Assembly (NCBI RefSeq): GCF_000373965.1
Contig: NZ_KB892836.1
Location: 739 to 64,738 of the forward strand
Reading direction: 5' to 3'
DNA length: 64,000 nt
Source: Uliginosibacterium gangwonense DSM 18521
Lineage (GTDB): Bacteria > Pseudomonadota > Gammaproteobacteria > Burkholderiales > Rhodocyclaceae
This document shows, in pieces, positions 1 to 63,893 of the stretch. The notes below the pieces were generated by a model. It was not told the DNA's origin. It made no database searches and was given only the letters and a program-made list of their open reading frames with translations. The translations under genes and the position numbers were made by a program. Each line of letters opens with the position of its first letter. The first letter of the stretch is position 1.

Positions 1-132
1 CGGATCGTGGATGCGGACTTCGCCTCTGAAACCGCCAACCTGTCGCGTGCGCAAATCCTGCAACAAGCTGGCACGGCCATGCTCTCTCAAGCCAACGCAC
101 TGCCGCAGCAAGTATTGAACCTGCTCAAGTAA
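1..132 (+). CDS. Flagellin, C-terminal end only (5' cut by window)
   Basis: Only the last 43 residues and the TAA stop are inside the window. They read as the conserved flagellin C-terminal D0 helix ([18 protein letters not shown] at its start, ending in [10 protein letters not shown]). The same segment occurs almost unchanged at the end of the complete flagellin gene that follows, so the two are tandem paralogues. In the family this helix pairs with the N-terminal helix to form the filament core and carries the export and polymerisation contacts. The gene ends 29 bases before a strong intrinsic terminator, so it is transcribed separately from the next flagellin. Confidence 0.93.
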
Positions 133-160
133 GCAACCGGCAGTTTTTAACCGGCAACAA

Positions 161-204
161 CTGCCGGGTGGAAGGGGCCCCCCCCGTCCACCCGGCAGTT
201 TTTT
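161..204 (+). terminator. Intrinsic terminator after first flagellin gene
   Basis: A perfect 12-bp stem (CTGCCGGGTGGA at 161-172 with TCCACCCGGCAG at 187-198) is followed directly by six T (199-204). It lies 29 bases after the upstream flagellin stop codon and insulates it from the next flagellin. Confidence 0.93.
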
Positions 205-296
205 ATTCTGTTGGCGCAGGAGAGCCCCCTGCCAAGAAAGGAGAAAGAACCCAAAAAACTGGCGGAAAGCCCCACCACATAAGGATCTACGAAAAC

Positions 297-312
297 TGGC
301 CCACCCTTTGCA
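297..312 (+). promoter_or_regulatory. Sigma-54 (-24/-12) promoter of second flagellin gene
   Basis: TGGC at 297-300 and TTGCA at 308-312 have exact sigma-54 spacing (TGGC-N7-TTGCA; consensus TGGCACG-N4-TTGC). The predicted start near 323 leaves an untranslated leader of about 100 bases before the flagellin ATG. I saw no convincing sigma-28 element in the same interval. Confidence 0.75.
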
Positions 313-425
313 TAGGATGCAGCAAGCCGGTCGGGTTCAGGTCATCGCGATGCAAGACACGCAGTGGTCAACTAAACGATGCCGGCGGCAATCGTAGTTT
401 TCCGCTTTTGTGGAGGATTTGAATC

Positions 426-1271
426 ATGACGATGACTATCAACACCAACGTTCCGTCGCTGAACGCGCAGCGGAATCTCTCTGCCACCCAAACATCGCTG
501 TCGACCTCGTTGCAGCGTTTGTCATCCGGTTTGCGGATCAACAGCGCCAAAGATGACGCCGCTGGACTGGCTATATCCGAGCGCATCCAATCACAGGTAC
601 GCGGCTACAACGTCGCCATGCGTAACGCCAATGATGCCATCTCCCTGATGCAGGTGGCTGACGGTGGCGCCGAGCAGATTTCCGGCAACTTGCAACGCAT
701 GCGTGAATTGGCGGTACAAGCGGCCAACGGTACCTTGAATTCAGGTGACCGTGCCAATATCCAGACCGAATTCGTGGCGCTCGGCAGAGAAATCACACGC
801 TTGTCTCAGGCAACACGCTTCAACAACGTAGCCTTGCTGAACTCTCTGGCGACCACCTTCACATTCCAGGTTGGCGCGGGGACGACCACCAACGACCAGA
901 TCTCGGTGCAGACCCTTGACATTCGAGCATCGGCAGCGGGTATTCTGATTAATTCAGGCAGCATCTTCGTATCTGGCTCAACCAGTGCCAACGCGTTGAA
1001 AGCCATCACCAACCTGGACAGCGCCATCAACAAGATCACCACAACCCGGGCGTCCTTCGGCGCAGCCATGAACCGAACCCAGGCGGTAATTTCGTCCTTG
1101 CAGATCGCAGTGGAAAACCAATCTGCCGCCCGTGGTCGAATTGTAGATGCGGACTTTGCGCAAGAAACCGCCAACTTGTCACGCGCCCAAATCCTGCAAC
1201 AAGCCGGCACAGCCATGCTTTCCCAGGCTAACGCGCTGCCGCAACAAGTTCTGAAACTCTTACAAGGCTAA
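426..1271 (+). CDS. fliC: Flagellin
   Basis: 281-residue flagellin, the filament subunit exported by the flagellar type III system. The N-terminal D0/D1 block (about residues 1-140, with NTNVPSLNAQRNL and SSGLRINSAKDDAAGLAI) and the C-terminal D1/D0 block (about 195-281) are both complete. The middle is very short, so the surface-exposed D2/D3 domains are essentially absent and the filament would be smooth and thin. The ATG follows a TGGAGGA ribosome site. A sigma-54 promoter lies upstream and a GAAA-loop terminator downstream, so it appears monocistronic. The C-terminus is nearly identical to that of the flagellin cut off at the window start, which suggests a tandem duplication; this could be the major or an alternative subunit. 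Confidence 0.96.
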   Translation: MTMTINTNVPSLNAQRNLSATQTSLSTSLQRLSSGLRINSAKDDAAGLAISERIQSQVRGYNVAMRNANDAISLMQVADGGAEQISGNLQRMRELAVQAANGTLNSGDRANIQTEFVALGREITRLSQATRFNNVALLNSLATTFTFQVGAGTTTNDQISVQTLDIRASAAGILINSGSIFVSGSTSANALKAITNLDSAINKITTTRASFGAAMNRTQAVISSLQIAVENQSAARGRIVDADFAQETANLSRAQILQQAGTAMLSQANALPQQVLKLLQG

Positions 1272-53072: not shown

Positions 53073-56000
53073 ATGACACATCCCGACTCCGCCACTCCGA
53101 TTGTTGAGCCCCCACAGCGCGTTGTCAAAGTGCGGCGCGACTACAACACCTGGGTGGCAAACGAAACGCTTGAGGATTACGCCCTGCGCTTCACCCCACA
53201 TGGCTTCCGCAAGTGGTCAGAAATGCGCGTGGCCAACACAGCGTTTGGCGCAGCCTCCTTTCTGGTGCTGGAAGCCGTCGGGGCGACCATGCTGGTCAAC
53301 GCAGGCTTCATCAATGCGTTCTGGGCGATCCTGGCGACCGGGCTGATCATTTTTCTGATCGGCCTGCCCATCAGCCATGCGGCCGCCCGCTGTGGTCTGG
53401 ATATGGACCTGCTGACCCGTGGCGCAGGCTTTGGCTACATCGGCTCGACCATCACCTCTTTCATCTACGCCTCTTTCACCTTCATCTTCTTTGCGCTTGA
53501 AGCAGCCATCATGGCCTATGCGCTGGAGCTGGCATTCCACCTCCCCCCCGCCTGGGGCTATCTGGTCAGCGCACTGGTCATCATTCCACTGGTCACCCAC
53601 GGGGTCACCGCGATCACCCGGCTGCAGGCCTGGACGCAACCCATCTGGCTGGCCCTGCTCGTTTTGCCATACGCTTTTGTGCTGGTGCAGGAACCTGCTG
53701 TACTGACGGGGCTGCTCCACTACCCTGGCAAGGACGCCACGGGCGCCGCGTTTTCAATGCCCTTGTTTGGTGCTGCATTAACCGTAGGCATCGCGCTGGT
53801 GACCCAGATGGGCGAGCAGGCCGATTACCTGCGCTTCATGCCTGCACGCTCGGCCAAAAACAGACGCCGTTGGTGGCTGGCCGTTGTGCTGGGTGGCCCC
53901 GGCTGGGTTGTGCCGGGTGTAGCCAAGATGCTGGGCGGCGCGCTGCTTGCCTATCTGGCCTTGCGCAACGCCGTGCCTGCAGCAAAGGCGGTCGACCCCA
54001 ACCAGATGTATCTGATCGGCTTCTCTCACGTTGTTAACAACGGAACGCTGGCAGTCGGTCTCACAGTGCTGTTTGTTGTGCTCTCGCAGATCAAGATCAA
54101 CGTCACCAACGCCTACGCGGGCTCGCTGGCATGGTCCAACTTCTTTGCGCGCCTCACGCACAGCCACCCGGGCCGTGTGGTGTGGGTCGTGTTCAACACC
54201 CTGATCGCGTTATTGCTGATGGAGCTGGACGTATTCCAGGCGCTCGGCCAAGTCCTGGGCCTGTACTCCAACGTGGCCATATCCTGGATGAGCGCAGTAG
54301 TCGCCGATCTGGTCATCAACAAGCCCCTCGGGCTCTCCCCCCGCCACATCGAATTCAAGCGCAGCCATCTCTACGACATCAACCCGGTCGGCGTGGGGGC
54401 CATGGCAATTGCCTCGGCAGCCTCCATCGCAGCATTCAGTGGCATCCTGGGCATAAGTGTGCAGCCTTATGCATGCTTCATTGCCATACTCACCGCGTTT
54501 GTGATGGCGCCCTTGATTGCGTGGCTCACCGGCGGCAAATACTATCTGGTCAGGCACGCGGCAACACCAGCAACAGGCATGCAGCGTTGCAGCATCTGTG
54601 AGCGCGAATACGAAGCGCAAGACACCACCCATTGCCCCGCCTATGCGGGCACCATCTGCTCGCTGTGCTGCTCGCTCGATGCGCGTTGCCACGACCTGTG
54701 CAAACCCGGCGCCAACCTCTCGGGCCAATGGAACGGGCTCTTGCAACGCCTGCTGCCTCGCTCCGTTACGCCCTATCTTGACGCGGGGCTGGTCCATTAC
54801 CTGCTGCTGATGTTGGGCATCACCCCTGTGCTGGCAGGCTTGCTGGGCCTGCTCTACATCCATGAGGTCATGACCCTGGCCCCCACACAGGCGACACTGG
54901 TCCCGCATCTGCAGCAAGTTTTCATCAAAGCCTTCTCGGCACTTTTTCTGCTCTCGGGCATTGGTGCATGGTGGATGGTGCTGACGCACAAAAGCAGGCA
55001 GGTGGCGCAGGAAGAATCCAACCGCCAGACCCACCTGCTGATGCAGGAAATTGACGCCCACCAACGCACCGACAGCCAGTTGCAAAAGGCCAAGCAAGCC
55101 GCAGATCAGGCCAACCTCGCCAAGAGCCGCTACATCACCGCCATCAGCCATGAGTTACGTACACCGCTGAACAGCATTCTTGGCTATGCGCAAATCCTGG
55201 ATGGTGATGAATCCATCCCGGCCAACCGCAGGCAGGCAATCAGCGTGATCCGCAAGAGCGGGGACCACCTGCTGTCTGTCATTGAAGGCACACTGGATAT
55301 TGCCCGCATCGAAGGGGGCAAGCTCACGCTGGAAGCCAAGCCCTTCGATTTCCCCGATTTTCTGCAACAGATCGTCGGCATGTTTGAATTACAGGCGCAT
55401 AACAAGGGTCTGCATTTCCGCTACGCACCAACAGGTGAAATGCCGCGCATCGTGCGGGCGGATCAGCACCGCCTGCGCCAGATTCTGATCAACGTGCTGG
55501 GCAATGCAGTCAAATTCACCAATCTGGGGGGCGTAGACTTCCGCGTGGAATATCGGCGGGATATGGCCACCTTTGAAATCCATGACAGCGGCCCGGGCAT
55601 CCCTGCTGACGACATCGAACGCATCTTTGAACCCTTTGTACGCGGCAGCAAGGCGCAGGCGGGCGGCAGTGGCGTGGGGCTGACCATTGCGCGCATGCTC
55701 ACCACGCTGATGGGCGGTGAGATGCAGGTTGCCAGCAAACCCGGCCAAGGCAGCACCTTCCGCATCCGGCTCTTCCTGCCACAAATCCATTCAGCCCAGG
55801 CCGCGCAAGATCTCCCACGGCTCAACCGAGTGGGTTATGTGGGCATCCGGCGGCGCATCCTGGTCGTGGATAACGAAAAGGTCGACCGGGATATGCTGCA
55901 AAGCGTGCTGGACCCATTGGGCTTCCAGGTCGAACAGGCGGCCAGCGGCGAAGAATGCCTTGAAATGCTGGCTGGTTTTGCGCCCCATCTCATTTTCATG

Positions 56001-56477
56001 GATCTGGCCATGCCCGGCATTGATGGCTGGGAAACCATTCGCCGCATCCGTGCCCAAGGTCTCAGTGATGCGCATATCGCCATCCTCTCGGCCAATGCCT
56101 TTGACAAGGGGCTGGAAAATGACGTTCAGATCAGCACGGAGGATTTCATCCTCAAGCCCTTGCGTGTTGAGGAACTGCTGGACTGGCTTGGCCGCAAGCT
56201 CGACTTGAGCTGGGTGAGTGCAGATGTACCTGTCACGCCCCCTGCACCGCCACCCAGTCAGCCCAAGGCACTCATCCCGCCAGCAGCACATCAGACGCTT
56301 GCGCTGGAAGAACTCATAAAACTTGGTTATCTGCGTGGCATTCTCAACAAACTGGGTGAAATCGAGCGGGAGAAGGAGGAGTACACCGAGTTTGTCAAAG
56401 TCCTGCGTGATCTGGCCCGGCAGTTCCAATTCGATGCCATGCTGGAAATTCTAAGAAAGGCCCGCGATGTCCGCTGA
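53073..56477 (+). CDS. NCS1-type transporter fused to hybrid histidine kinase
   Basis: 1134 residues. Residues about 35-470 are a nucleobase:cation symporter-1 (purine/uracil/allantoin/hydantoin) transporter with about twelve helices (RVANTAFGAASFLVLEAVGATMLVNAG, GFGYIGSTITSF, VTQMGEQADYLRFMP). A cytoplasmic cysteine-rich module follows (eight Cys between 506 and 543: CxxC...CPAYAGTICSLCC...RCHDLC). Then come two helices (about 570-595, 620-640), a coiled coil, HisKA with His693 (SHELRTPLNSILGY), ATPase (DSGPGIPADD, GSGVGLTIARML), a receiver with Asp977 (IFMDLAMPG) and a helical tail. It probably senses or transports a ureide or nucleobase and phosphorylates the overlapping LuxR-type regulator. 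No clear ribosome site at ATG 53073. Confidence 0.93.
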   Translation: MTHPDSATPIVEPPQRVVKVRRDYNTWVANETLEDYALRFTPHGFRKWSEMRVANTAFGAASFLVLEAVGATMLVNAGFINAFWAILATGLIIFLIGLPISHAAARCGLDMDLLTRGAGFGYIGSTITSFIYASFTFIFFALEAAIMAYALELAFHLPPAWGYLVSALVIIPLVTHGVTAITRLQAWTQPIWLALLVLPYAFVLVQEPAVLTGLLHYPGKDATGAAFSMPLFGAALTVGIALVTQMGEQADYLRFMPARSAKNRRRWWLAVVLGGPGWVVPGVAKMLGGALLAYLALRNAVPAAKAVDPNQMYLIGFSHVVNNGTLAVGLTVLFVVLSQIKINVTNAYAGSLAWSNFFARLTHSHPGRVVWVVFNTLIALLLMELDVFQALGQVLGLYSNVAISWMSAVVADLVINKPLGLSPRHIEFKRSHLYDINPVGVGAMAIASAASIAAFSGILGISVQPYACFIAILTAFVMAPLIAWLTGGKYYLVRHAATPATGMQRCSICEREYEAQDTTHCPAYAGTICSLCCSLDARCHDLCKPGANLSGQWNGLLQRLLPRSVTPYLDAGLVHYLLLMLGITPVLAGLLGLLYIHEVMTLAPTQATLVPHLQQVFIKAFSALFLLSGIGAWWMVLTHKSRQVAQEESNRQTHLLMQEIDAHQRTDSQLQKAKQAADQANLAKSRYITAISHELRTPLNSILGYAQILDGDESIPANRRQAISVIRKSGDHLLSVIEGTLDIARIEGGKLTLEAKPFDFPDFLQQIVGMFELQAHNKGLHFRYAPTGEMPRIVRADQHRLRQILINVLGNAVKFTNLGGVDFRVEYRRDMATFEIHDSGPGIPADDIERIFEPFVRGSKAQAGGSGVGLTIARMLTTLMGGEMQVASKPGQGSTFRIRLFLPQIHSAQAAQDLPRLNRVGYVGIRRRILVVDNEKVDRDMLQSVLDPLGFQVEQAASGEECLEMLAGFAPHLIFMDLAMPGIDGWETIRRIRAQGLSDAHIAILSANAFDKGLENDVQISTEDFILKPLRVEELLDWLGRKLDLSWVSADVPVTPPAPPPSQPKALIPPAAHQTLALEELIKLGYLRGILNKLGEIEREKEEYTEFVKVLRDLARQFQFDAMLEILRKARDVR

Positions 56478-57399
56478 AGCTCTCGAACGCGAAATATCCG
56501 ATATCGTCCTGATCGTGGATGATGTGCCGGAAAATCTGGCGCTGTTGCATGACGCGCTGGACGAAGCGGGCTACACCGTATTGGTGGCCACCAATGGCGA
56601 ATCCGCGCTGCAACGCGCCCATCAAAGTCTGCCAGACGTCATTCTGCTCGATGCCCTCATGCCCGGCATGGATGGGTTTGAAGTTGCCCGTCGCCTCAAG
56701 GCCGACTACGCCACGCACCATATCCCCATTGTATTCATGACGGGGCTGACCGAAACCGAGCATGTGGTCGCGGCCTTTTCCGCAGGGGGTGCCGATTACG
56801 TCACCAAGCCCATCCGCCCCGCAGAAGTGCTGGCACGAATCGCTGCGCATATGCAAAATGCAAGGCAGATGCGCCAGGCCCGAACCGCACTGGACGCATT
56901 CGGACAGGCAACAGTGGCCGTGCGTGCCAGTGATGGCAAGCTGGTCTGGCAAACACCCCTTTCGCGCAAAATGCTCAAAGAGTATTTCAACATTGCCGAA
57001 GGCGAGACGCCAGTACGTCTGCTGGCCTGGATCGCTGAAGCAGACGCCGCACACAAACAAGGCCGGGAAGCCAACCCCTTGCTTCTGGAAGATGGACAAC
57101 GCAGATTGCTGGCCTCTTTTCATGACCAGACGGGCGACCAGGAGTGGCTGGTGGTATTGCGCGAAGAAAATGATGCCTCATCGGTTGAGGCGCTGATCGC
57201 TGCATTCCGCCTGACCCAGCGGGAGGCTGAAGTGCTCTACTGGGTCACCATGGGCAAGACCAGCAAGGATATCGGGGACATCCTCGGCAGCAGCCCACGC
57301 ACCGTCAACAAGCATCTTGAACACGTCTTTGAGAAACTAGGCGTAGAGACACGCACTGCCGCAGCCAACCTAGCCATGAGCAAGCTGCGCAGCAACTGA
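56467..57399 (+). CDS. LuxR-family response regulator
   Basis: 310 residues. Receiver domain (about 15-130) with phospho-acceptor Asp62 (VILLDALMPGMDG), the acidic pair in IVDDVPE and Lys in VTKPIRP. A central PAS-like segment (about 140-230; QATVAVRASDGKLVWQTPL) lies before a LuxR-type HTH (about 245-305: LTQREAEVLYWVTMGKTSKDIGDILGSSPRTVNKHLEHVFEKLGV). It overlaps the transporter-kinase gene by 11 bases and is surely its output partner. Targets are not shown, but the adjacent urea/ureide genes are obvious candidates. Its TGA stop lies inside the target duplication of the element that follows. Confidence 0.95.
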   Translation: MSAEALEREISDIVLIVDDVPENLALLHDALDEAGYTVLVATNGESALQRAHQSLPDVILLDALMPGMDGFEVARRLKADYATHHIPIVFMTGLTETEHVVAAFSAGGADYVTKPIRPAEVLARIAAHMQNARQMRQARTALDAFGQATVAVRASDGKLVWQTPLSRKMLKEYFNIAEGETPVRLLAWIAEADAAHKQGREANPLLLEDGQRRLLASFHDQTGDQEWLVVLREENDASSVEALIAAFRLTQREAEVLYWVTMGKTSKDIGDILGSSPRTVNKHLEHVFEKLGVETRTAAANLAMSKLRSN

Positions 57400-57400
57400 G

Positions 57401-57541
57401 AACCTGTTCAGAATCTGTAGCGAGAGGCCATGATCGGGGCTCATGCGCTGCTCGAAATCCTCATTTATCAAACATAAACTCCGGTTTCTGCGCTGCTCTT
57501 CACCCCGCTGACGGCCTCTCGCTACAGATTCTGAACAGGTT
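57401..57541. mobile_element. MITE-like element with 29-bp inverted repeats and 5-bp target duplication
   Basis: Perfect 29-bp terminal inverted repeats (57401-57429, beginning AACCTGTTCAGAATC, and 57513-57541) flank 83 bases without a gene. The direct repeat CTGAG stands immediately outside both ends (57396-57400 and 57542-57546), a clear target-site duplication. Total length is 141 bases and there is no transposase, so it is non-autonomous. It landed on the stop codon of the response regulator and kept it intact. When transcribed, the arms would fold into a very stable hairpin that may affect transcription into urtA. Confidence 0.88.
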
Positions 57542-57685
57542 CTGAGAGAGGTGGCGATCCCCGACTACGCAATCTGACGTATTTTCGCTCCAGCCCGGCT
57601 TCCTTAATCTGGCACTGCGCCGTGATCAAACCCACGGCAAAGCATGACACCTGCAAACCCAGCCAGCATTAAGGAGCCATTCCTC

Positions 57686-58957
57686 ATGAAAGACCGTCGC
57701 ACCTTCATCAAGGCAACAGTAATCTCCAGCGCCATTGCGGCAATGGGGCTCGCGTCCTTCTCCGCCAGCGCAGCTGATACCATCAAGGTTGGCATCCTGC
57801 ATTCACTGTCTGGCACCATGGCCATCTCGGAAACCGCGCTCAAAGAAACCGCGCTGATGACCATCGACGAGATCAACAAATCCGGCGGCGTACTCGGCAA
57901 AAAGCTTGAGCCCGTGGTGGTCGACCCCGCCTCCAACTGGCCGCTGTTTGCCGAAAAGGCCCGCCAGTTACTCAGCAAGGATAAGGTAGCCGTCACTTTT
58001 GGCTGTTGGACTTCCGTATCCCGCAAGTCGGTTTTGCCGGTCTATAAGGAACTGAATGGCCTGCTCTTCTACCCCGTGCAATATGAAGGCGAAGAGCTTG
58101 AAAAGAACGTGTTCTACACGGGCGCTGCGCCCAACCAACAGGCGATTCCCGCTGTGGAATACCTGATGAGCAAGGATGGTGGCGAGGCCAAACGCTTTGT
58201 GCTGCTGGGCACCGACTATGTATATCCGCGCACGACCAACAAGATCCTGCGCGCCTTCCTGAAGTCCAAAGGCGTAGCCGATGCCGACATCATGGAAGAG
58301 TACACGCCGTTCGGCCACAGTGATTATCAGACCATCATTGCCAAGATCAAGAAGTTCGCTTCCGAAGGCAAGAAGACTGCCGTGGTATCCACCATCAATG
58401 GCGACTCGAATGTGCCTTTCTACAAGGAACTTGGCAACGCAGGGCTGAAGGCAACCGATGTACCGGTTGTGGCTTTCTCGGTGGGCGAAGAGGAACTGCG
58501 TGGCGTGGATACCAAACCGCTAGTTGGTCACCTCGCCTCCTGGAACTACTTCATGTCGCTGAAGAATCCCGAGAACGACAAGTTCGTGAAGATGTACAAG
58601 GAATGGGCCAAGAAGCAAAAGCTCCCCAATGCTGACAAGGTTGTGACCAACGACCCGATGGAAGCCACCTACATCGGCATCCACATGTGGAAGCAAGCGG
58701 TGGAAAAGGCCAAGAGCACGGATGTCGACAAGGTGATTGCAGCCATGTCGGGGCAAACCTTCAAGGCCCCCAGCGGATTTGTCGCCAAGATGGATGAGAA
58801 GAACCACCACCTACACAAACCGGTCTTCATCGGTGAGGTCAAAGCAGACGGCCAATTCAACGTTGTGTGGAAGACGCCCGGTCCGGTCAAAGCCCAGCCT
58901 TGGAGCCCATTTATTGCGGGTAACGACAAGAAGAAAGACGAACCGGATAGCAAATAG
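57686..58957 (+). CDS. urtA: UrtA-like urea/short-chain-amide ABC substrate-binding protein
   Basis: 423 residues with a twin-arginine-type signal (DRRTFIKATVISSAIAAMGLASFSASAAD). The body is a type-1 periplasmic binding fold of the UrtA/AmiC/FmdD group: KVGILHSLSGTMAISE, VVVDPASNWPLFAEKARQL, VTFGCWTSVSRKSVLPV, FYPVQYEGEE, FYTGAAPNQQAIPAVEYL, TDYVYPRTTNKI. UrtA captures urea for the UrtBCDE importer. None of urtBCDE follows; the gene is solitary, ending in a terminator. ATG 57686 has AAGGAG 9 bases upstream. It may serve an importer elsewhere or present ligand to the transporter-kinase encoded upstream. Confidence 0.93.
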   Translation: MKDRRTFIKATVISSAIAAMGLASFSASAADTIKVGILHSLSGTMAISETALKETALMTIDEINKSGGVLGKKLEPVVVDPASNWPLFAEKARQLLSKDKVAVTFGCWTSVSRKSVLPVYKELNGLLFYPVQYEGEELEKNVFYTGAAPNQQAIPAVEYLMSKDGGEAKRFVLLGTDYVYPRTTNKILRAFLKSKGVADADIMEEYTPFGHSDYQTIIAKIKKFASEGKKTAVVSTINGDSNVPFYKELGNAGLKATDVPVVAFSVGEEELRGVDTKPLVGHLASWNYFMSLKNPENDKFVKMYKEWAKKQKLPNADKVVTNDPMEATYIGIHMWKQAVEKAKSTDVDKVIAAMSGQTFKAPSGFVAKMDEKNHHLHKPVFIGEVKADGQFNVVWKTPGPVKAQPWSPFIAGNDKKKDEPDSK

Positions 58958-59272: not shown

Positions 59273-59947
59273 ATGCCAAGCCTATCAAATGTAGCCGCAC
59301 AAAATCTGCAAAGGCTCATTGCCGATGGCACTTATGCCCCTGGGGTTGCACTGCCGTCCCAAAGAGATCTGGCAGAAACCTTGGGTATCAGCCGAACCAG
59401 CCTGCGAGAGGCCATCTCCATGCTTGAAGCATTGGGCTTCGTTCGATCCCATGCTGGAAAAGGGGTTTTTGTCACGGCAGGAAAGGGGCGAGACGCTGGT
59501 GACATTCCTGCCAATCCATTAGGCATGAGGCCTGAGGCCATTTTCCAGTTCCGCTTTGTACTGGAACCCGCCGCCGCCAGCATGGTAGCGGCCAATCCAC
59601 AAAACAACAGTAGTGAGCTGCAGGAAATCCAGTCAAACCTGGAAGCAGCACTACACAGCATGGATCTGGTGACCGCCGCCGAGTGCGACATGACCTTTCA
59701 CCACTGCATTGCCCGCCTCAGCGGAAACGAAGCCTTTGCTTCTGTATTGAAACAATATGAAACCCAGGTGGCCTATAGCCTGCAGTTGCCATTTGCAAAC
59801 CCGCAGGGCATCTGGGATACCGCAGACGAACACCTGGCCGTGATCAACGCCATCAATCAGCACGATCCCGCTACGGCCCGGCAAGCCATGCAAACCCATT
59901 TATTACGTGCCGCCAGCCGCGTCGGCATTCATTTTTACCAACCATGA
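59273..59947 (+). CDS. GntR family (FadR subfamily) transcriptional regulator
   Basis: 224 residues. N-terminal winged HTH (residues about 5-72: LPSQRDLAETLGISRTSLREAISMLEALGFVRSHAGKGVFV) and a C-terminal FCD ligand-binding domain with metal-site residues (AECDMTFHHCIARLSGN, DEHLAVINAINQHD, HLLRAASR). It heads an operon of ureide uptake and breakdown genes and is preceded by a palindrome of its family's type, so it should be a local repressor released by a pathway compound (allantoin, allantoate, ureidoglycolate or glyoxylate are candidates). AGAGGA precedes the ATG. Confidence 0.94.
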   Translation: MPSLSNVAAQNLQRLIADGTYAPGVALPSQRDLAETLGISRTSLREAISMLEALGFVRSHAGKGVFVTAGKGRDAGDIPANPLGMRPEAIFQFRFVLEPAAASMVAANPQNNSSELQEIQSNLEAALHSMDLVTAAECDMTFHHCIARLSGNEAFASVLKQYETQVAYSLQLPFANPQGIWDTADEHLAVINAINQHDPATARQAMQTHLLRAASRVGIHFYQP

Positions 59948-59964
59948 AGCGAAGGAGAAGTACC

Positions 59965-60756
59965 ATGAAAGTTTCCCATATGTTCCACTCCCTGGCGCTG
60001 GTTGGCGCCCTGGCGCTTGGATCGTTTGCGTCCGTCGCCCAGGCCGACGTATTGGCCAACATCACCAAGGCCAACACCATCAAGATCGCCGTACCACAGG
60101 ACTTCCCGCCCTTTGGCAGCGTAGGTGCAGACATGAAGCCCACTGGTTATGACATAGATGTAGCCAACCTGATCGCCAAGGAATTGGGAACCAAGGTAGA
60201 ACTCGTTCCGGTCACCAGTGCCAACCGCATCCCCTTCCTCACTACCGGCAAGGTTGATCTGGTGATCTCCAGCATGGGCAAGAACCCCGACCGTGAAAAG
60301 GTGATTGATTTCTCGGCTGCATATGCCCCATTTTTCAACGGGGTGTTTGGTCCGGCTGACGTAAAGATCAGCAAGCCGGAAGAGCTCGCCGGTAAAACCA
60401 TTGGCGTGACCCGTGGTTCAATTGAAGATCTGGAACTCTCCAAGATTGCCCCGTCCAGCGCCACCATCAAACGCTTTGAAGACAACAACGGCACCATCAC
60501 TGCCTATCTCTCCGGCCAGACCCAACTCATTGCCACCGGCAACGTTGTAGCGGCGGCTGTCAATGAACGAACCAAGCTGCGCTCGCTGTCGGTGAAGTTC
60601 CTCGTCAAGAACTCCCCTTGTTTCGTCGGTCTGGCAAAAGGAGAAACCGCCCTGCAAACCAAGGTGAATGACATCATCCAGAAGGCCAAGAAATCCGGCG
60701 CATTAAACGAAATCTCCAAGCGCTGGCTGCATGCATCACTACCAACGGATCTGTAA
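59965..60756 (+). CDS. Polar-amino-acid-type ABC substrate-binding protein (ureide uptake candidate)
   Basis: 263 residues: Sec signal ending at ASVAQAD, then a type-2 periplasmic binding fold of the SBP_bac_3 family (IKIAVPQDFPPFGSVGADMKPTGYDIDVANLIAKELG, RIPFLTTGKVDLVISSMGKNPDREKVIDFS, ELAGKTIGVTRGSIEDLEL). Relatives bind glutamine, arginine or opines. Here the operon with allantoicase and ureidoglycolate lyase suggests allantoin, allantoate or another ureide. ATG 59965 follows AAGGAG; an earlier ATG (59944) overlaps the gntR stop and precedes the ribosome site. Confidence 0.92.
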   Translation: MKVSHMFHSLALVGALALGSFASVAQADVLANITKANTIKIAVPQDFPPFGSVGADMKPTGYDIDVANLIAKELGTKVELVPVTSANRIPFLTTGKVDLVISSMGKNPDREKVIDFSAAYAPFFNGVFGPADVKISKPEELAGKTIGVTRGSIEDLELSKIAPSSATIKRFEDNNGTITAYLSGQTQLIATGNVVAAAVNERTKLRSLSVKFLVKNSPCFVGLAKGETALQTKVNDIIQKAKKSGALNEISKRWLHASLPTDL

Positions 60757-60778
60757 AACGCTGTTTCATCATCAATAC

Positions 60779-60806
60779 CCACCCCACATAAAACCGGGGT
60801 GGTTTT
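60779..60806 (+). terminator. Hairpin with T run between binding protein and permease
   Basis: CCACCCC (60779-60785) pairs with GGGGTGG (60796-60802), followed by TTTTG. Inside an operon such a site lets most transcripts stop after the binding-protein gene, or protects its mRNA end. Confidence 0.6.
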
Positions 60807-60820
60807 GAAAGATTCTGACC

Positions 60821-61492
60821 ATGGCCTACCACTTCGATTTCAATTTTGTACCTGACTATGCGGGCATGCTTGCCCACGGCATAGGCTATACGCTCGGCCT
60901 GACCCTGCTGGGTGGCACGCTGGGAACGTTGATCGGCATTGGTGGCGCCATCAGTCGAACCTGGAATGTGCGCCCCTTTGCTGGCCTCTATAGGTGCTAC
61001 GTAGAGTTGTTCCGCAACACGCCTTTCCTGGTGCAACTGTTTCTCATCTTCTTTGGCCTGCCATCGCTGGGTATCAAGCTGACGGAATGGCAAGCCGCCA
61101 TACTGGCAATGGTGCTCAACCTGGGAGCCTATAGCACCGAAATCATCCGCGCAGGCTTACAGGCAATACCCAAGGGCTTGATTGAAGCCTCTGAATCACT
61201 GGCTTTCACACGCTGGCAGACTTTCTTTTACGTCATGCTGCGCCCTGCCCTGCTCAAGGTGTGGCCAGCACTGAGCAGCCAGATCGTGATCACCATGCTG
61301 GGCTCATCCGTATGCTCACAAATCTCAGCAGAAGAACTGACCTTTGTCGCCAACTTCATCCAGTCCCGCAACTTCCGGGCCTTTGAAACCTATTTCCTGA
61401 CCACTGCCATCTATTTCGCCCTAGCTGTCATCATCCGGCAGGCTTTGGCAGCAATCGGGCGCTATGCCATCGCACGGAGGCCACAAGCATGA
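60821..61492 (+). CDS. ABC transporter permease, HisM/GlnP type (first)
   Basis: 223 residues with five predicted helices and the polar-amino-acid permease pattern: FRNTPFLVQLFLIFFGLPSLGI and the EAA loop GLIEASESLAFTRWQTFFYVMLRPALLKVWPAL. It forms a heterodimeric channel with the next gene's product in the inner membrane. It overlaps the next gene by 4 bases (ATGA). The ligand is inferred only from the operon. Confidence 0.95.
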   Translation: MAYHFDFNFVPDYAGMLAHGIGYTLGLTLLGGTLGTLIGIGGAISRTWNVRPFAGLYRCYVELFRNTPFLVQLFLIFFGLPSLGIKLTEWQAAILAMVLNLGAYSTEIIRAGLQAIPKGLIEASESLAFTRWQTFFYVMLRPALLKVWPALSSQIVITMLGSSVCSQISAEELTFVANFIQSRNFRAFETYFLTTAIYFALAVIIRQALAAIGRYAIARRPQA

Positions 61493-62148
61493 TGATGACA
61501 TTTACCCTGTGGGACATTATCCGCAACCTTGCCATCAGCGGGCTCCTCACCATCGTTCTTTCTGTGGCTGCCTTTGTGTTTGGCGGGCTGGCCGGGCTGG
61601 CAGTCCTATTTGCACGCATCAGCAAGATCCGGGCAATCAACGCCTCGGCCCGGCTCTATATCGAGATGTTCCAGGGCACCCCTTTGCTGATGCAGTTGTT
61701 CATCCTGTTCTTCGGTCTCTCACTCTTCGGGCTTGATCTGCCCGCATGGCTCGCCGCAGGCGTAGGCCTGACCTTGTTTACCAGTGCCTTCCTCGCGGAA
61801 ATCTGGCGTGGCTGTGTTGAATCAGTACCGCGCGGCCAATGGGAAGCCAGCACCAGTCTGGCGATGACTTATGCTGAACAGATGCGCCACGTCATCCTCC
61901 CCCAAGCCATGCGCATGGCAATTGCCCCCACCGTTGGCTTTGCCGTTCAGGTGGTAAAGGGTACTGCGGTGACTTCCATCATCGGTTTTGCCGAACTCAC
62001 CAAAACCGGCTCGATGCTCAGCAACGCCACCTATCAACCCTTCCTGCTCTATAGCCTGGTGGCCCTGGGCTATTTCATTCTCTGCTATCCGCTGTCCTGG
62101 TATGCCCAGCGTCTGGAAAGGAAAGTCCATGCCCCTCGTACAAACTAA
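61489..62148 (+). CDS. ABC transporter permease, HisM/GlnP type (second)
   Basis: 219 residues, paralogous to the preceding permease: FQGTPLLMQLFILFFGLSLFGLDLP and the EAA loop WEASTSLAMTYAEQMRHVILPQAMRMAIAP. Three ATG codons stand in a row at the start (61489, 61492, 61495); GGAGG lies just upstream, so the exact first residue is uncertain by two. Pairs with the first permease. Overlaps the ATPase gene by 20 bases. Confidence 0.95.
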   Translation: MMMTFTLWDIIRNLAISGLLTIVLSVAAFVFGGLAGLAVLFARISKIRAINASARLYIEMFQGTPLLMQLFILFFGLSLFGLDLPAWLAAGVGLTLFTSAFLAEIWRGCVESVPRGQWEASTSLAMTYAEQMRHVILPQAMRMAIAPTVGFAVQVVKGTAVTSIIGFAELTKTGSMLSNATYQPFLLYSLVALGYFILCYPLSWYAQRLERKVHAPRTN

Positions 62149-62857
62149 GCGCCTGCACAAGTTCTTTGGTAAAAACCATGTGCTCAAAGGCATCAATCTG
62201 GACATCCAGGAAGGCGAAGTCGTCACCATCATCGGGCGTAGTGGCTCAGGCAAAAGCACCCTGCTGCGCACACTGAACGGCCTGGAAAGCATTGATGACG
62301 GCACCATCGAAGTCGATGGCACCGCATTGGTTGCAGGCCAGGGCGATCTGCGCGCACTGCGCCAGAAAGTCGGCATGGTCTTCCAACAATTCAACCTCTT
62401 CCCGCACCTGAGTGCGGGGCAGAACGTGATGCTCGCCCCACAGGTCGTCAAGGGCACCAAGAAGGATGAGGCCGAAACCATAGCCCGTAACATGCTGGCC
62501 CGGGTTGGTCTGGCCGAAAAATTCGACGCCTTCCCCGATCAGCTCTCCGGCGGACAGCAGCAACGCGTGGCAATCGCCAGAGCACTGGCCATGTCGCCAA
62601 AAGTGCTGCTCTGTGATGAAATCACCTCTGCGCTGGACCCAGAGCTTGTCAATGAAGTGCTCAGCGTGGTGCGCCAGCTTGCCAGCGAGGGCATGACATT
62701 GGTCATGGTGACGCATGAAATGCGCTTTGCCCGCGAAGTCAGCGATAAACTCGTGTTCATGTACGAAGGCCGCATTCACGAATCCGGCCATCCGCAGGAA
62801 ATGTTCAACAACCCGACCACGCCGGAATTTGCCAACTTTATCCGTACGCAAAACTAG
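62129..62857 (+). CDS. ABC transporter ATP-binding protein, GlnQ type
   Basis: 242 residues with every ABC motif: Walker A GRSGSGKST, Q-loop VFQQFNLFPHLS, signature LSGGQQQRVAIARAL, Walker B VLLCDEITSALDP and the switch His in MVTHEMRFAREVSD. It powers the two permeases. ATG 62129 follows GGAAAGGAAAG; the longer open frame upstream is an out-of-frame reading of the permease gene. Confidence 0.96.
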   Translation: MPLVQTKRLHKFFGKNHVLKGINLDIQEGEVVTIIGRSGSGKSTLLRTLNGLESIDDGTIEVDGTALVAGQGDLRALRQKVGMVFQQFNLFPHLSAGQNVMLAPQVVKGTKKDEAETIARNMLARVGLAEKFDAFPDQLSGGQQQRVAIARALAMSPKVLLCDEITSALDPELVNEVLSVVRQLASEGMTLVMVTHEMRFAREVSDKLVFMYEGRIHESGHPQEMFNNPTTPEFANFIRTQN

Positions 62858-62864
62858 AACAGCC

Positions 62865-63893
62865 ATGACCTCGACCACCCTGATCGCCCCACCCGCCGAG
62901 CTGCCACGCTGGGCCGCCCGCGCCATCAACCTTGCCGACCCACGCCTGGGTGCCAAGGCCGTGGCCTGCTCGGATGATTTCTTCGCCCCAATGGGCCGCA
63001 TGCTCAACCCGGAACCTGCCTGCTTCATCCCCGGCAAGTATGATGACAACGGCAAGTGGATGGATGGCTGGGAAAGCCGCCGCAAGCGCGTTGCCGGGCA
63101 CGACTGGTGCATCGTCAAGCTTGGCTGCCCCGGCAGCATTGCAGGCTTCGATCTGGATACGAGCTTTTTCACCGGCAACTATCCGCCCGCAGCCACCATA
63201 GAAGGTTGCCCGGTGGGCAGCGACCCAGCCCACGCACAATGGTTGCCACTCACAGCCATGGTTCAACTCCAGGGTAACCGGCATCATGTGCAGGAAGCCT
63301 TGGCGCACCCCGGCGTAGTGTTTTCGCATATCCGCGTCAGCATCTACCCCGATGGCGGGCTGGCCCGCCTGCGCGTCTATGGACAACCCGCCAGCCTTGC
63401 CCGCGAAACGGGGCCGGATGGCCTCATCGACCTGATAGCCATGCGTCACGGTGGCCGCGCCATCGCTTGGAACGATGCCCACTTTGGCATCGCCGCCAAT
63501 CTGCTGCTGCCAGGGCGTGGCATCAACATGGGCGAAGGCTGGGAAACCCGGCGGCGCCGGGAACCGGGCCATGACTGGTGCATCCTTGCACTGGGCATTC
63601 CCGGCGAAATTGTACGCGTTGAGGTCGACACGGCCCACTTCAAGGGCAACTTTCCGGACCGCAGCTCGCTGCAGGCCGCTTTTATACCCACGCTCGATGA
63701 ATCGGCCATGCCCGCTCAATCGCAATTCTGGCAGACGCTGTTGCCAGAGAGCCCGCTTACGGCCGACGGAATCCACAATTTCGCGGCACAGGCGCTCGGC
63801 CCTGTCAGCCATATCCGCTTCAACCTGCACCCGGATGGTGGCGTATCCCGCTTGCGCTTGTGGGGGCGGCCCGTTGAGGAGAAAGCATGCTGA
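62865..63893 (+). CDS. alc: Allantoicase
   Basis: 342 residues made of two homologous allantoicase domains (about 15-175 and 200-340), each with the family's pattern: KWMDGWESRRKR...GHDWCIVKLG...FDLDTSFFTGNYPP in the first and GEGWETRRRREPGHDWCILALG...EVDTAHFKGNFPD in the second. Each ends in a HIRxxxYPDGGLARLR-like strand. It hydrolyses allantoate to ureidoglycolate and urea. Start ATG 62865 is 7 bases after the ATPase stop. The stop overlaps the ATG of the ureidoglycolate lyase gene, so purine-derived ureide breakdown is coupled. Confidence 0.96.
   Translation: MTSTTLIAPPAELPRWAARAINLADPRLGAKAVACSDDFFAPMGRMLNPEPACFIPGKYDDNGKWMDGWESRRKRVAGHDWCIVKLGCPGSIAGFDLDTSFFTGNYPPAATIEGCPVGSDPAHAQWLPLTAMVQLQGNRHHVQEALAHPGVVFSHIRVSIYPDGGLARLRVYGQPASLARETGPDGLIDLIAMRHGGRAIAWNDAHFGIAANLLLPGRGINMGEGWETRRRREPGHDWCILALGIPGEIVRVEVDTAHFKGNFPDRSSLQAAFIPTLDESAMPAQSQFWQTLLPESPLTADGIHNFAAQALGPVSHIRFNLHPDGGVSRLRLWGRPVEEKAC

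Follow-up and report, generated by a model that had tools for sequence, protein, structure and literature searches.

The analysed window, a stretch of 64,000 nucleotides from Uliginosibacterium gangwonense DSM 18521 (assembly GCF_000373965.1, contig NZ_KB892836.1, positions 739 to 64,738 of the forward strand), harbors the genes of a hybrid sensor kinase and its adjoining response regulator, both on the + strand, which are described here together with their relatives in other genomes. The sensor gene (53073..56477) encodes 1134 amino acids (aa) from its ATG and was delimited by open reading frame (ORF) analysis, Pfam, AlphaFold2 (AF2) and fold search. Its product starts with an NCS1-like membrane domain (residues ~32-490, 53166..54542; placed by VIA-align on CodB 7qoa and by hhalign), followed by a module with eight cysteines that are invariant in the alignment (residues ~504-546, 54582..54710), two helices (572-602 and 607-675) and three domains recognized by Pfam: HisKA (residues 683-749, 55119..55319), HATPase_c (residues 797-902, 55461..55778) and a fused receiver (Response_reg, residues 929-1037, 55857..56183). 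His693 of HisKA and Asp977 of the receiver are invariant in a 15-row alignment. The regulator (56467..57399, 310 aa from ATG; ORF and Pfam) consists of a receiver (Response_reg, residues 14-125) and a LuxR-type GerE domain (249-303), with no domain assigned at ~140-245. Hence, HisKA, HATPase, receiver, the acceptor His and Asp and a neighbouring regulator, the hallmarks of a hybrid two-component system, are all present, and a whole (predicted) carrier fold and a whole kinase are encoded within a single ORF, as in a transporter-kinase fusion. The first-pass annotation of this DNA had described the same 1134-residue fusion of carrier, Cys module, HisKA, ATPase and receiver as well as an overlap of 11 bases between kinase and regulator ORFs; the former was confirmed by ORF analysis, Pfam and fold prediction, the latter at 56467-56477. 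Its receiver-PAS-LuxR regulator held for the receiver and LuxR parts, and no PAS domain was detected by Pfam. The sensor aligns over nearly its full length with 14 relatives (45-72% identity), several from outside the genus, and because these align almost end to end, a chance origin of the fused ORF is discounted. The fusion is real and conserved, and it is poorly named in public records.

Searches with residues 1-500 against Pfam, NCBIfam, PHROGs and PDB sequences gave no usable match. For the membrane domain, PF02133 was not hit at E 0.001, 1 or 10 (with filters that remove weak matches), and no PDB sequence match was obtained at E 10. The AF2 model of residues 1-676, computed from 95 input sequences, has a pLDDT of 89.8 and a pTM of 0.89, and all Foldseek ranks 1-5 for the membrane domain are CodB or Mhp1. 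In VIA-align, CodB 7qoa scored Z 35.0 (model range 32..488, 397 aligned residues, rmsd 3.3, target length 400) and Mhp1 27.4-29.2, with the top non-NCS1 row at 26.1; rows 1-4 are CodB and Mhp1. CodB is well clear of this top non-NCS1 row, whereas Mhp1 is ahead by just 1.3-3.1 Z, and the identity of the two carriers to the membrane domain amounts to only 15-17%. Structures of the SSS type rank below NCS1 in the Foldseek and VIA-align lists, so that NCS1 is the closer fold. A profile comparison by hhalign of the family (15 rows) with 22 NCS1-type sequences, two of which (L165 and L166) had surfaced in the search for the family itself, yielded a probability of 99.7 and E 1.4e-25 over 405 columns. 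Among relatives without a kinase, P0001 (47% identical) passes PF02133 with 38.1 bits at a cut-off of 23.5 and L285 with 31.8 bits; L284 fails. Since fold and profile match but PF02133 does not match directly, the membrane domain is predicted to be a divergent NCS1-type carrier and not a canonical NCS1 symporter. The NCS1 assignment of the first-pass annotation is retained in this qualified form.

The putative substrate and ion sites were compared with those of Mhp1 and CodB. Mhp1 Trp117, Gln121, Trp220 and Asn318 align to Phe139, Glu143, Leu242 and Asn346. An alignment with Mhp1/PucI to see whether substrate residues are conserved had been suggested by the first-pass annotation: of these four, only the Asn318 position is kept, Trp117, Gln121 and Trp220 are replaced, and the new set is strictly conserved. 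Lys341, Asn346, Gln245, Glu248, Gln249, Asp251 and Arg254 are invariant in 95 aligned rows, Glu143 is present in 94, and the family motif reads Q-x-GEQ-x-D-Y-L-R-F. At the Na+ positions, Mhp1 Ser312/Thr313 and the equivalent CodB Thr278/Thr279, described as Na+ ligands in PMC9379551, correspond to Lys341/Ile342. The domain resembles CodB and Mhp1 in its fold over residues 32-488, the Asp-x-x-Arg of the NCS1 set and the Asn318 position; it differs from them in that the Na+ site and most substrate residues, including the Trp/Gln set, are replaced and in that it carries the family motif, the Cys module and a kinase. As the residues are replaced yet strictly conserved, the site appears unlike that of hydantoin or cytosine carriers and, judged from the alignment, under strict constraint.

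The Cys module, also pointed out in the first-pass annotation, is a constant part of the family, with all eight cysteines (506, 509, 521, 529, 532, 533, 539 and 543) conserved in 95/95 aligned sequences. No Pfam match was obtained between carrier and HisKA, the position of STAC in CbrA. Modelled alone, the module reached a pLDDT of 71.6 and no significant fold match (best Foldseek E 0.22); its Foldseek list contains many zinc proteins of the RING/PHD/FYVE type, none of them significant. It is presumed to be a zinc-binding coupler. The idea that the module is common to other carrier-kinases was rejected: in 120 genomes of the order, all 23 strong matches lie in ORFs of at least 1132 aa, the three odd long ones among these (1408-1695 aa) also carry the NCS1 domain, and four further matches (E 0.0009-0.008) look like chance.

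The gene neighbourhood was surveyed in 55 sensor loci with flanks, comprising 48 of the 57 fused rows of a 398-genome scan and seven loci from a separate homologue search; L165, L166, L169, L170 and L205, which are not family loci, were excluded from the counts. For the queries FmdA, amidase, UrtA-E, UreA, UreE and UreG, names were assigned by NCBIfam models scoring above their cut-offs; UreB, UreC, UreD, UreF and UreJ were named by reading (UreC of this genome also by TIGR01792). The sensor gene lies with urea or formamide/acetamide genes in 53/55 loci. Genes of the urt or ure type occur in 51/55 loci and in 49 of the 51 that are well flanked (≥6 kb upstream and ≥7 kb downstream), and the regulator adjoins the sensor in 53. 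As a control, 20 other kinase loci (matches to the kinase part with hybrid status unchecked, two from one genome and two shorter than 19 kb) contained urt or ure in 0/20 cases and in no case FmdA or AmiE. A second set, the 80 genome_contigs loci, which represent the best matches and not an even sample, has the regulator next to the sensor in 72 and urt or ure within reach in 60. Among later loci, urea or amide genes are found in 16/27 (7/10 of L231-L240, 7/15 sensor loci of L284-L299, and L315 and L316). No match to the allantoicase and AllA queries was obtained in the family loci searched with them.

The 55 loci largely fall into two branches. A formamidase or amidase match but no urease is found in each of the 35 loci whose UrtA-like protein falls below 58% identity (amide branch); the ten loci with UrtA at ≥58% have no formamidase or amidase match, and four of them have urease. 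The rest comprise two loci with FmdA (L167 and L168), six with urease and no UrtA in reach, and two at contig ends with none of these genes (L171 and L193). On plasmid pBVIE02 of Burkholderia vietnamiensis, the sensor and its LuxR regulator accompany a nitrilase-type hydrolase, FmdB, formamidase and a HAAT transporter. A sensor on a Klebsiella pneumoniae IncFIB/IncFII plasmid (L263, NZ_CP121136.1 164670-190112) was observed next to urtABCDE-formamidase, the two being separated by a stretch with an operator-like site. In a set of 61 relatives, 18 with the fused sensor (counted by matches covering the membrane domain), UrtA over its cut-off was found in 17/18 sensor-bearing versus 11/43 other genomes (Fisher p 5.5e-7) and urease alpha in 17/18 versus 13/43 (p 3.1e-6). 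With the seven same-genus genomes removed, UrtA remains at 11/11 versus 11/43 (p 7.4e-6), and p for urease alpha is 3.8e-4. The two genomes that miss one of these genes have pieces of it at contig ends (UrtA in G004, urease in G011). The nitrogen theme proposed earlier is borne out by these recurrent urea and amide neighbours; of the genes named for the survey, urt and ure recur, though not universally, and the allantoin genes do not.

The strongest pointer to the ligand comes from four close relatives without a kinase, all in urea or amide clusters. P0001 (L264:7944-9551), annotated as 'cytosine permease', follows ureDABCEFG; its record was deposited as a 5.4-Mb 'plasmid' of K. pneumoniae 176, a doubtful label. 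L285:9092-10711 is flanked by ureG upstream and a NicO-family nickel permease gene downstream, and L312:9260-10885 lies between urtABCDE and ureDABCEFG. The fourth, in L284, is divergent from a fused sensor and directly precedes formamidase (fmdA) and amidase (amiE), the place usually taken by the ABC transporter. The Cys module is C-terminal to the carrier in all four, shortened to a Cys tail in the first three, and all keep the site motifs (the Glu, Q-x-GEQ-x-D and K-x-N-x-x-N). The urease-operon type of P0001, L285 and L312 is a candidate for a new family of urea permeases. Among distant forms, L165 (30%) retains the Glu, has Arg at the Lys341 position and is neighboured by genes for a nitrilase-type hydrolase and an AmiR-type regulator; two in G953 (28-29%) lack a nearby urea gene, one being beside an apparent hydantoinase-like gene (by reading). 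In the tree, kinase-less forms are nested inside fused sets (98/93 and 100/100). Because the fork closest to them has low support (89/76) and the tree is midpoint-rooted on very long outgroup branches, no direction of fusion or loss is drawn.

A candidate operator was detected by pattern search in front of urtA (57644..58957, + strand; TIGR03407, 595.5 bits, cut-off 492.75). This palindrome, CTACGCAATCTGACGTAT (57565..57582, no strand assigned), starts 79 bases before the urtA start, matches the core TACG[CT]N6[AG]CGTA exactly and has three mismatches to the 18-mer of the amide branch. A weaker copy at urtB (L205:3296, outside the window), with four mismatches and one base off the core, starts at the same distance (79 bases) from its start codon. 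It was in the amide branch that the palindrome was discovered; TACGT-N6-ACGTA occurs there in 15 of 34 sensor upstream regions of 420 bases (the 35 minus one similar region), the best dyad of ten shuffled sets reaching 3. Its 18-base form, ATACGTCANNTGACGTAT, has a site with ≤3 mismatches in 24/35 amide-branch loci. With ≤4 mismatches, 35 sites lie in 16 kb of upstream regions versus 11 in the other 667 kb, the former count partly describing its own source because the palindrome was discovered in these regions. In some amide loci (L184, L293 and L316), fmdA likewise has a site upstream.

In the urea branch (104 sequences), the relaxed core, which was written after the sites of the window and L205 had been seen, occurs 30 times in 1.99 Mb; the first 40 loci contain ten sites versus 0, 1 and 1 in shuffles. 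Twenty-four sites are located 27-106 bases before urtA and two before the sensor gene; those of the window and L239 precede urtA by coordinates, and those of L077 and L201 are stray. Urea-type loci holding urtA have the core upstream of it in 18/25 and 6/10 cases. In a comparison with sensor-free genomes, UrtA-type upstream regions contain the core in 14/20 cases from 16 sensor-bearing genomes versus 0/20 from 12 sensor-free genomes (p 3.3e-6; two of the latter regions overlap), corresponding by genome to 13/16 versus 0/12 (p 1.5e-5). After removal of three discovery-set regions, the ratio is 11/17 versus 0/20 (p 1.4e-5). Within the 5.02-Mb genome, a pattern written from the urtA and urtB sites has no exact match other than these two; with one mismatch it has eight, versus 13 for a reversed control, i.e. 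control level. No core site is present in the stretches around the three urease-operon kinase-less relatives. Dyad and 8-mer counts upstream of the urea-branch sensor gene were set aside, being dominated by sequence common to close relatives.

It is probable, in our view, that the pair acts as a urea-responsive two-component system, responding to short-chain amides in the sister branch. Urea or short amides, rather than nucleobases or allantoin, are the likely ligands, as the recurrent neighbours suggest. As the most likely course of events, urea or an amide would bind the divergent NCS1-type carrier domain; occupancy or cycling of the carrier would shift the Cys module and helix 607-675, altering the HisKA/ATPase core; a phosphoryl group would pass to the LuxR-type regulator; and this would bind TACG[CT]N6[AG]CGTA before urtA, and probably also the weaker urtB copy, downstream of which the urease genes lie. 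Binding would presumably turn on urea/amide uptake and hydrolysis (urtA, urease). The first and last links draw on comparative evidence, the middle one on the analogy with CbrA and Ks-Amt5.

Several results weigh against this proposal. Pfam finds no HPt domain in the kinase, which bears on the phosphoryl path from the fused receiver to the regulator. No urt or ure gene lies in the stretch in 20/80 genome_contigs loci (12 of 55 well-flanked ones), and urea and amide genes are lacking in 11 of the 27 later loci, several of them short stretches (L232, L233, L236, L286, L287, L289, L290, L291, L294, L298 and L299). The split into branches is not absolute: L209 is counted among the 35 amide-branch loci solely via a 36%-identical amidase-type match, and urease and formamidase/amidase occur together in L231, L234 and L235. 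An exact core is missing from 18/55 loci, from 7/25 and 4/10 urea-type loci holding urtA, and from 6/20 regions of sensor-bearing genomes (those of G060 and G011, that of the urea-type urtA in G043, and those of a second UrtA-type copy in each of G012, G014 and G032). The palindrome could also belong to another regulator travelling with the system. As an observation apart, L231, L234 and L235 illustrate that targets of both branches can be combined.

A special case of the urea/amide system, to which we assign somewhat less than an even chance, is that the carrier fold has become a pure sensor, binding urea or an amide and leaving uptake to UrtABCDE. The ABC transporter often adjoins the sensor, Lys341/Ile342 stand in place of the CodB Na+ ligands, and Ks-Amt5 'binds but does not translocate' ammonium, as put in PMC5764959. 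Yet the same residues are found in the kinase-less relatives of urease and formamidase operons, pointing to a site competent for transport, and CbrA, which also has Lys at the Na2 site, is said in PMC13022988 to transport histidine by proton motive force.

Outside the urea/amide reading, the membrane domain might report ammonium, the general nitrogen state, an ion gradient or pH, with the system only gating urea use. With its basic residue at the Na2 position, the domain could be proton-responsive; genes for urea transport and urease go up when Azoarcus is under N2-fixing conditions (PMC8467165); and some loci have no urea or amide neighbours. The near split of sensor branches by urea versus amide neighbours and the kinase-less relatives in urea/amide operons, however, fit a substrate-specific site better, and this explanation is considered unlikely.

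We also doubt that the palindrome serves an unrelated nitrogen regulator, which would mean that the regulon is not that of this pair. The core is missing from a good part of the loci, but it is absent from all 20 sensor-free UrtA-type regions and accompanies the sensor in distant genomes of the phylum. Its 7-2-7 layout of inverted heptamers, moreover, resembles that of sites for NarL-type regulators, which have the same type of DNA-binding domain. It is very improbable that the protein is a nitrogen transceptor for the ligands first suggested, nucleobase-type substrates of NCS1 carriers such as uracil, allantoin or hydantoin: NCS1 carriers of known function handle such compounds and allantoicase and allA lie in this gene cluster, but Mhp1 Trp117, Gln121 and Trp220 are not kept, and it is urt/ure or amide-ABC, formamidase and amidase genes, not allantoin genes, that recur as neighbours.

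Beyond the urea/amide two-component system itself, a wider proposal, for and against which we hold the chances to be evenly balanced, is that one entire branch of the NCS1-type carriers became specialised for urea and short amides, with kinase-less permeases bearing a full or shortened Cys tail and sensors with their own operator. It would comprise a new class of urea/amide transporters and the missing urea/formamide sensor of many Pseudomonadota, with the eight-Cys module as a new coupler in the place of STAC.

Comparison with CbrA, made already in the first-pass annotation, proved apt. As in the SLC5-STAC kinases CbrA, CrbS and RpuS, a carrier is joined to a histidine kinase via a small cytoplasmic module, and CbrA has a basic residue at the Na2 position (Lys196 in PMC13022988, versus Lys341 here by alignment). 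Unlike in these proteins, the carrier is closer to NCS1 than to SLC5 by predicted fold, the eight-Cys module and two long helices stand at the position of STAC, and a fused receiver, a LuxR-type partner and urea/amide neighbours are present. Ks-Amt5 is likewise a nitrogen-compound transporter recruited as a histidine kinase sensor; it has an Amt carrier and is reported as binding without translocation (PMC5764959). The fusion adds a carrier family to the described transporter-kinase fusions (SLC5, Amt) and bears on how carriers become receptors. No description of an NCS1-histidine kinase fusion or of a membrane sensor of urea was found in the literature searched, most subscription papers being outside it. 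The pair represents a candidate urea sensor with a proposed operator.

The pair has very probably been listed before. Table 4 of PMC2907700 gives for Dechloromonas aromatica a histidine kinase (583663, 1131 aa) and a Che-Y like receiver (583664, 308 aa) with UrtA next; sizes and the adjacent UrtA, not a sequence comparison, are the basis for equating the two. The available portion of that paper names them only 'histidine kinase' and 'Che-Y like receiver' and mentions no carrier domain, ligand or operator. The K. pneumoniae CG307 UTS (UrtABC/AmiF; PMC13060141) is a similar urea/amide ABC and formamidase cluster, and the terms 'histidine kinase' and 'two-component' are absent from the main text of its description. 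On plasmid pESBL-PH-41, the sensor is directly beside a urea/amide ABC and formamidase cluster, and the gene names suggest that the two clusters are the same. Induction of fmd genes by formamide and urea is already published (PMC10781810). GrtK, an ammonia sensor of Burkholderia glumae, was rejected as prior art, being a 427-aa PilS-like kinase.

The sensor is common in a species-level collection, in genomes across the phylum and on plasmids. Relatives of the membrane domain occur in at least 581 stretches of a collection with one genome per species, of which the best 80 were kept, with titles mostly from Betaproteobacteria. Across the phylum, 56/398 genomes match the membrane domain, 52 strongly. 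Their 62 match rows include 57 in open frames of 894-1365 aa and one in a 552-aa frame; the remaining rows are a fragment (G324) or weak, and the weak matches of G131, G283 and G229 were not counted as family. The membrane domain also matches 531 plasmid records, 342 of them from Klebsiella, the kinase part not being verified per record. The labels of 40 listed plasmid rows are 'ATP-binding protein' (21), ArcB (6), 'response regulator' (2), 'cytosine permease' (1) and none (10). Of the expectation that unannotated relatives exist in betaproteobacteria, the poor naming stands, and the distribution extends beyond this group in the phylum and on plasmids.

Some sensors deviate from the usual form. 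L232:8123-12310 and L233:8642-12760 represent a third, divergent form with HPt in both and PAS in L232; no urt, ure, FmdA or AmiE lies nearby, and L232 is near apparent phenol hydroxylase genes. The sensors of L167 and L168 are shorter (892-894 aa) and have no usual adjoining regulator; FmdA is close to both, and response-regulator genes of their own seem to be present in L167 (by reading), separate from the sensor. Two fused sensors lie ~9 kb apart on G772:C1 (L288, L289), the first adjoining an amide cluster. In Sinorhizobium (S.) meliloti strain ml45 (L262:12001-13454), the sensor gene matches in two pieces with no listed protein and may be broken, the gene table being incomplete.

In U. 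gangwonense, urtA follows the sensor and regulator genes; after it come a block of GntR regulator, ABC importer, allantoicase and allA and, further on, urtBCDE and the ure genes. The block includes a GntR/FCD regulator, a family-3 binding protein, two permeases, an ATPase (by reading) and allantoicase (59273..63893, + strand; Pfam, NCBIfam); beyond 63893, allA (L205:626-1135), urtBCDE and the ure genes are found in L205. Gene order in the relatives indicates that this allantoate block between urtA and urtB is a local, not a recurrent, part of the system. An operator-like site is present at the urtA half and at the urtB half, as would be expected if an insertion of the block had left both promoters in place. 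Finally, a perfect inverted repeat of 29 bases (57401-57429 and 57513-57541, 83 bases between) lies in the gap between regulator and urtA, shortly ahead of the candidate operator; it has just two copies in the window with three mismatches allowed and may be a terminator, a small mobile element or other.

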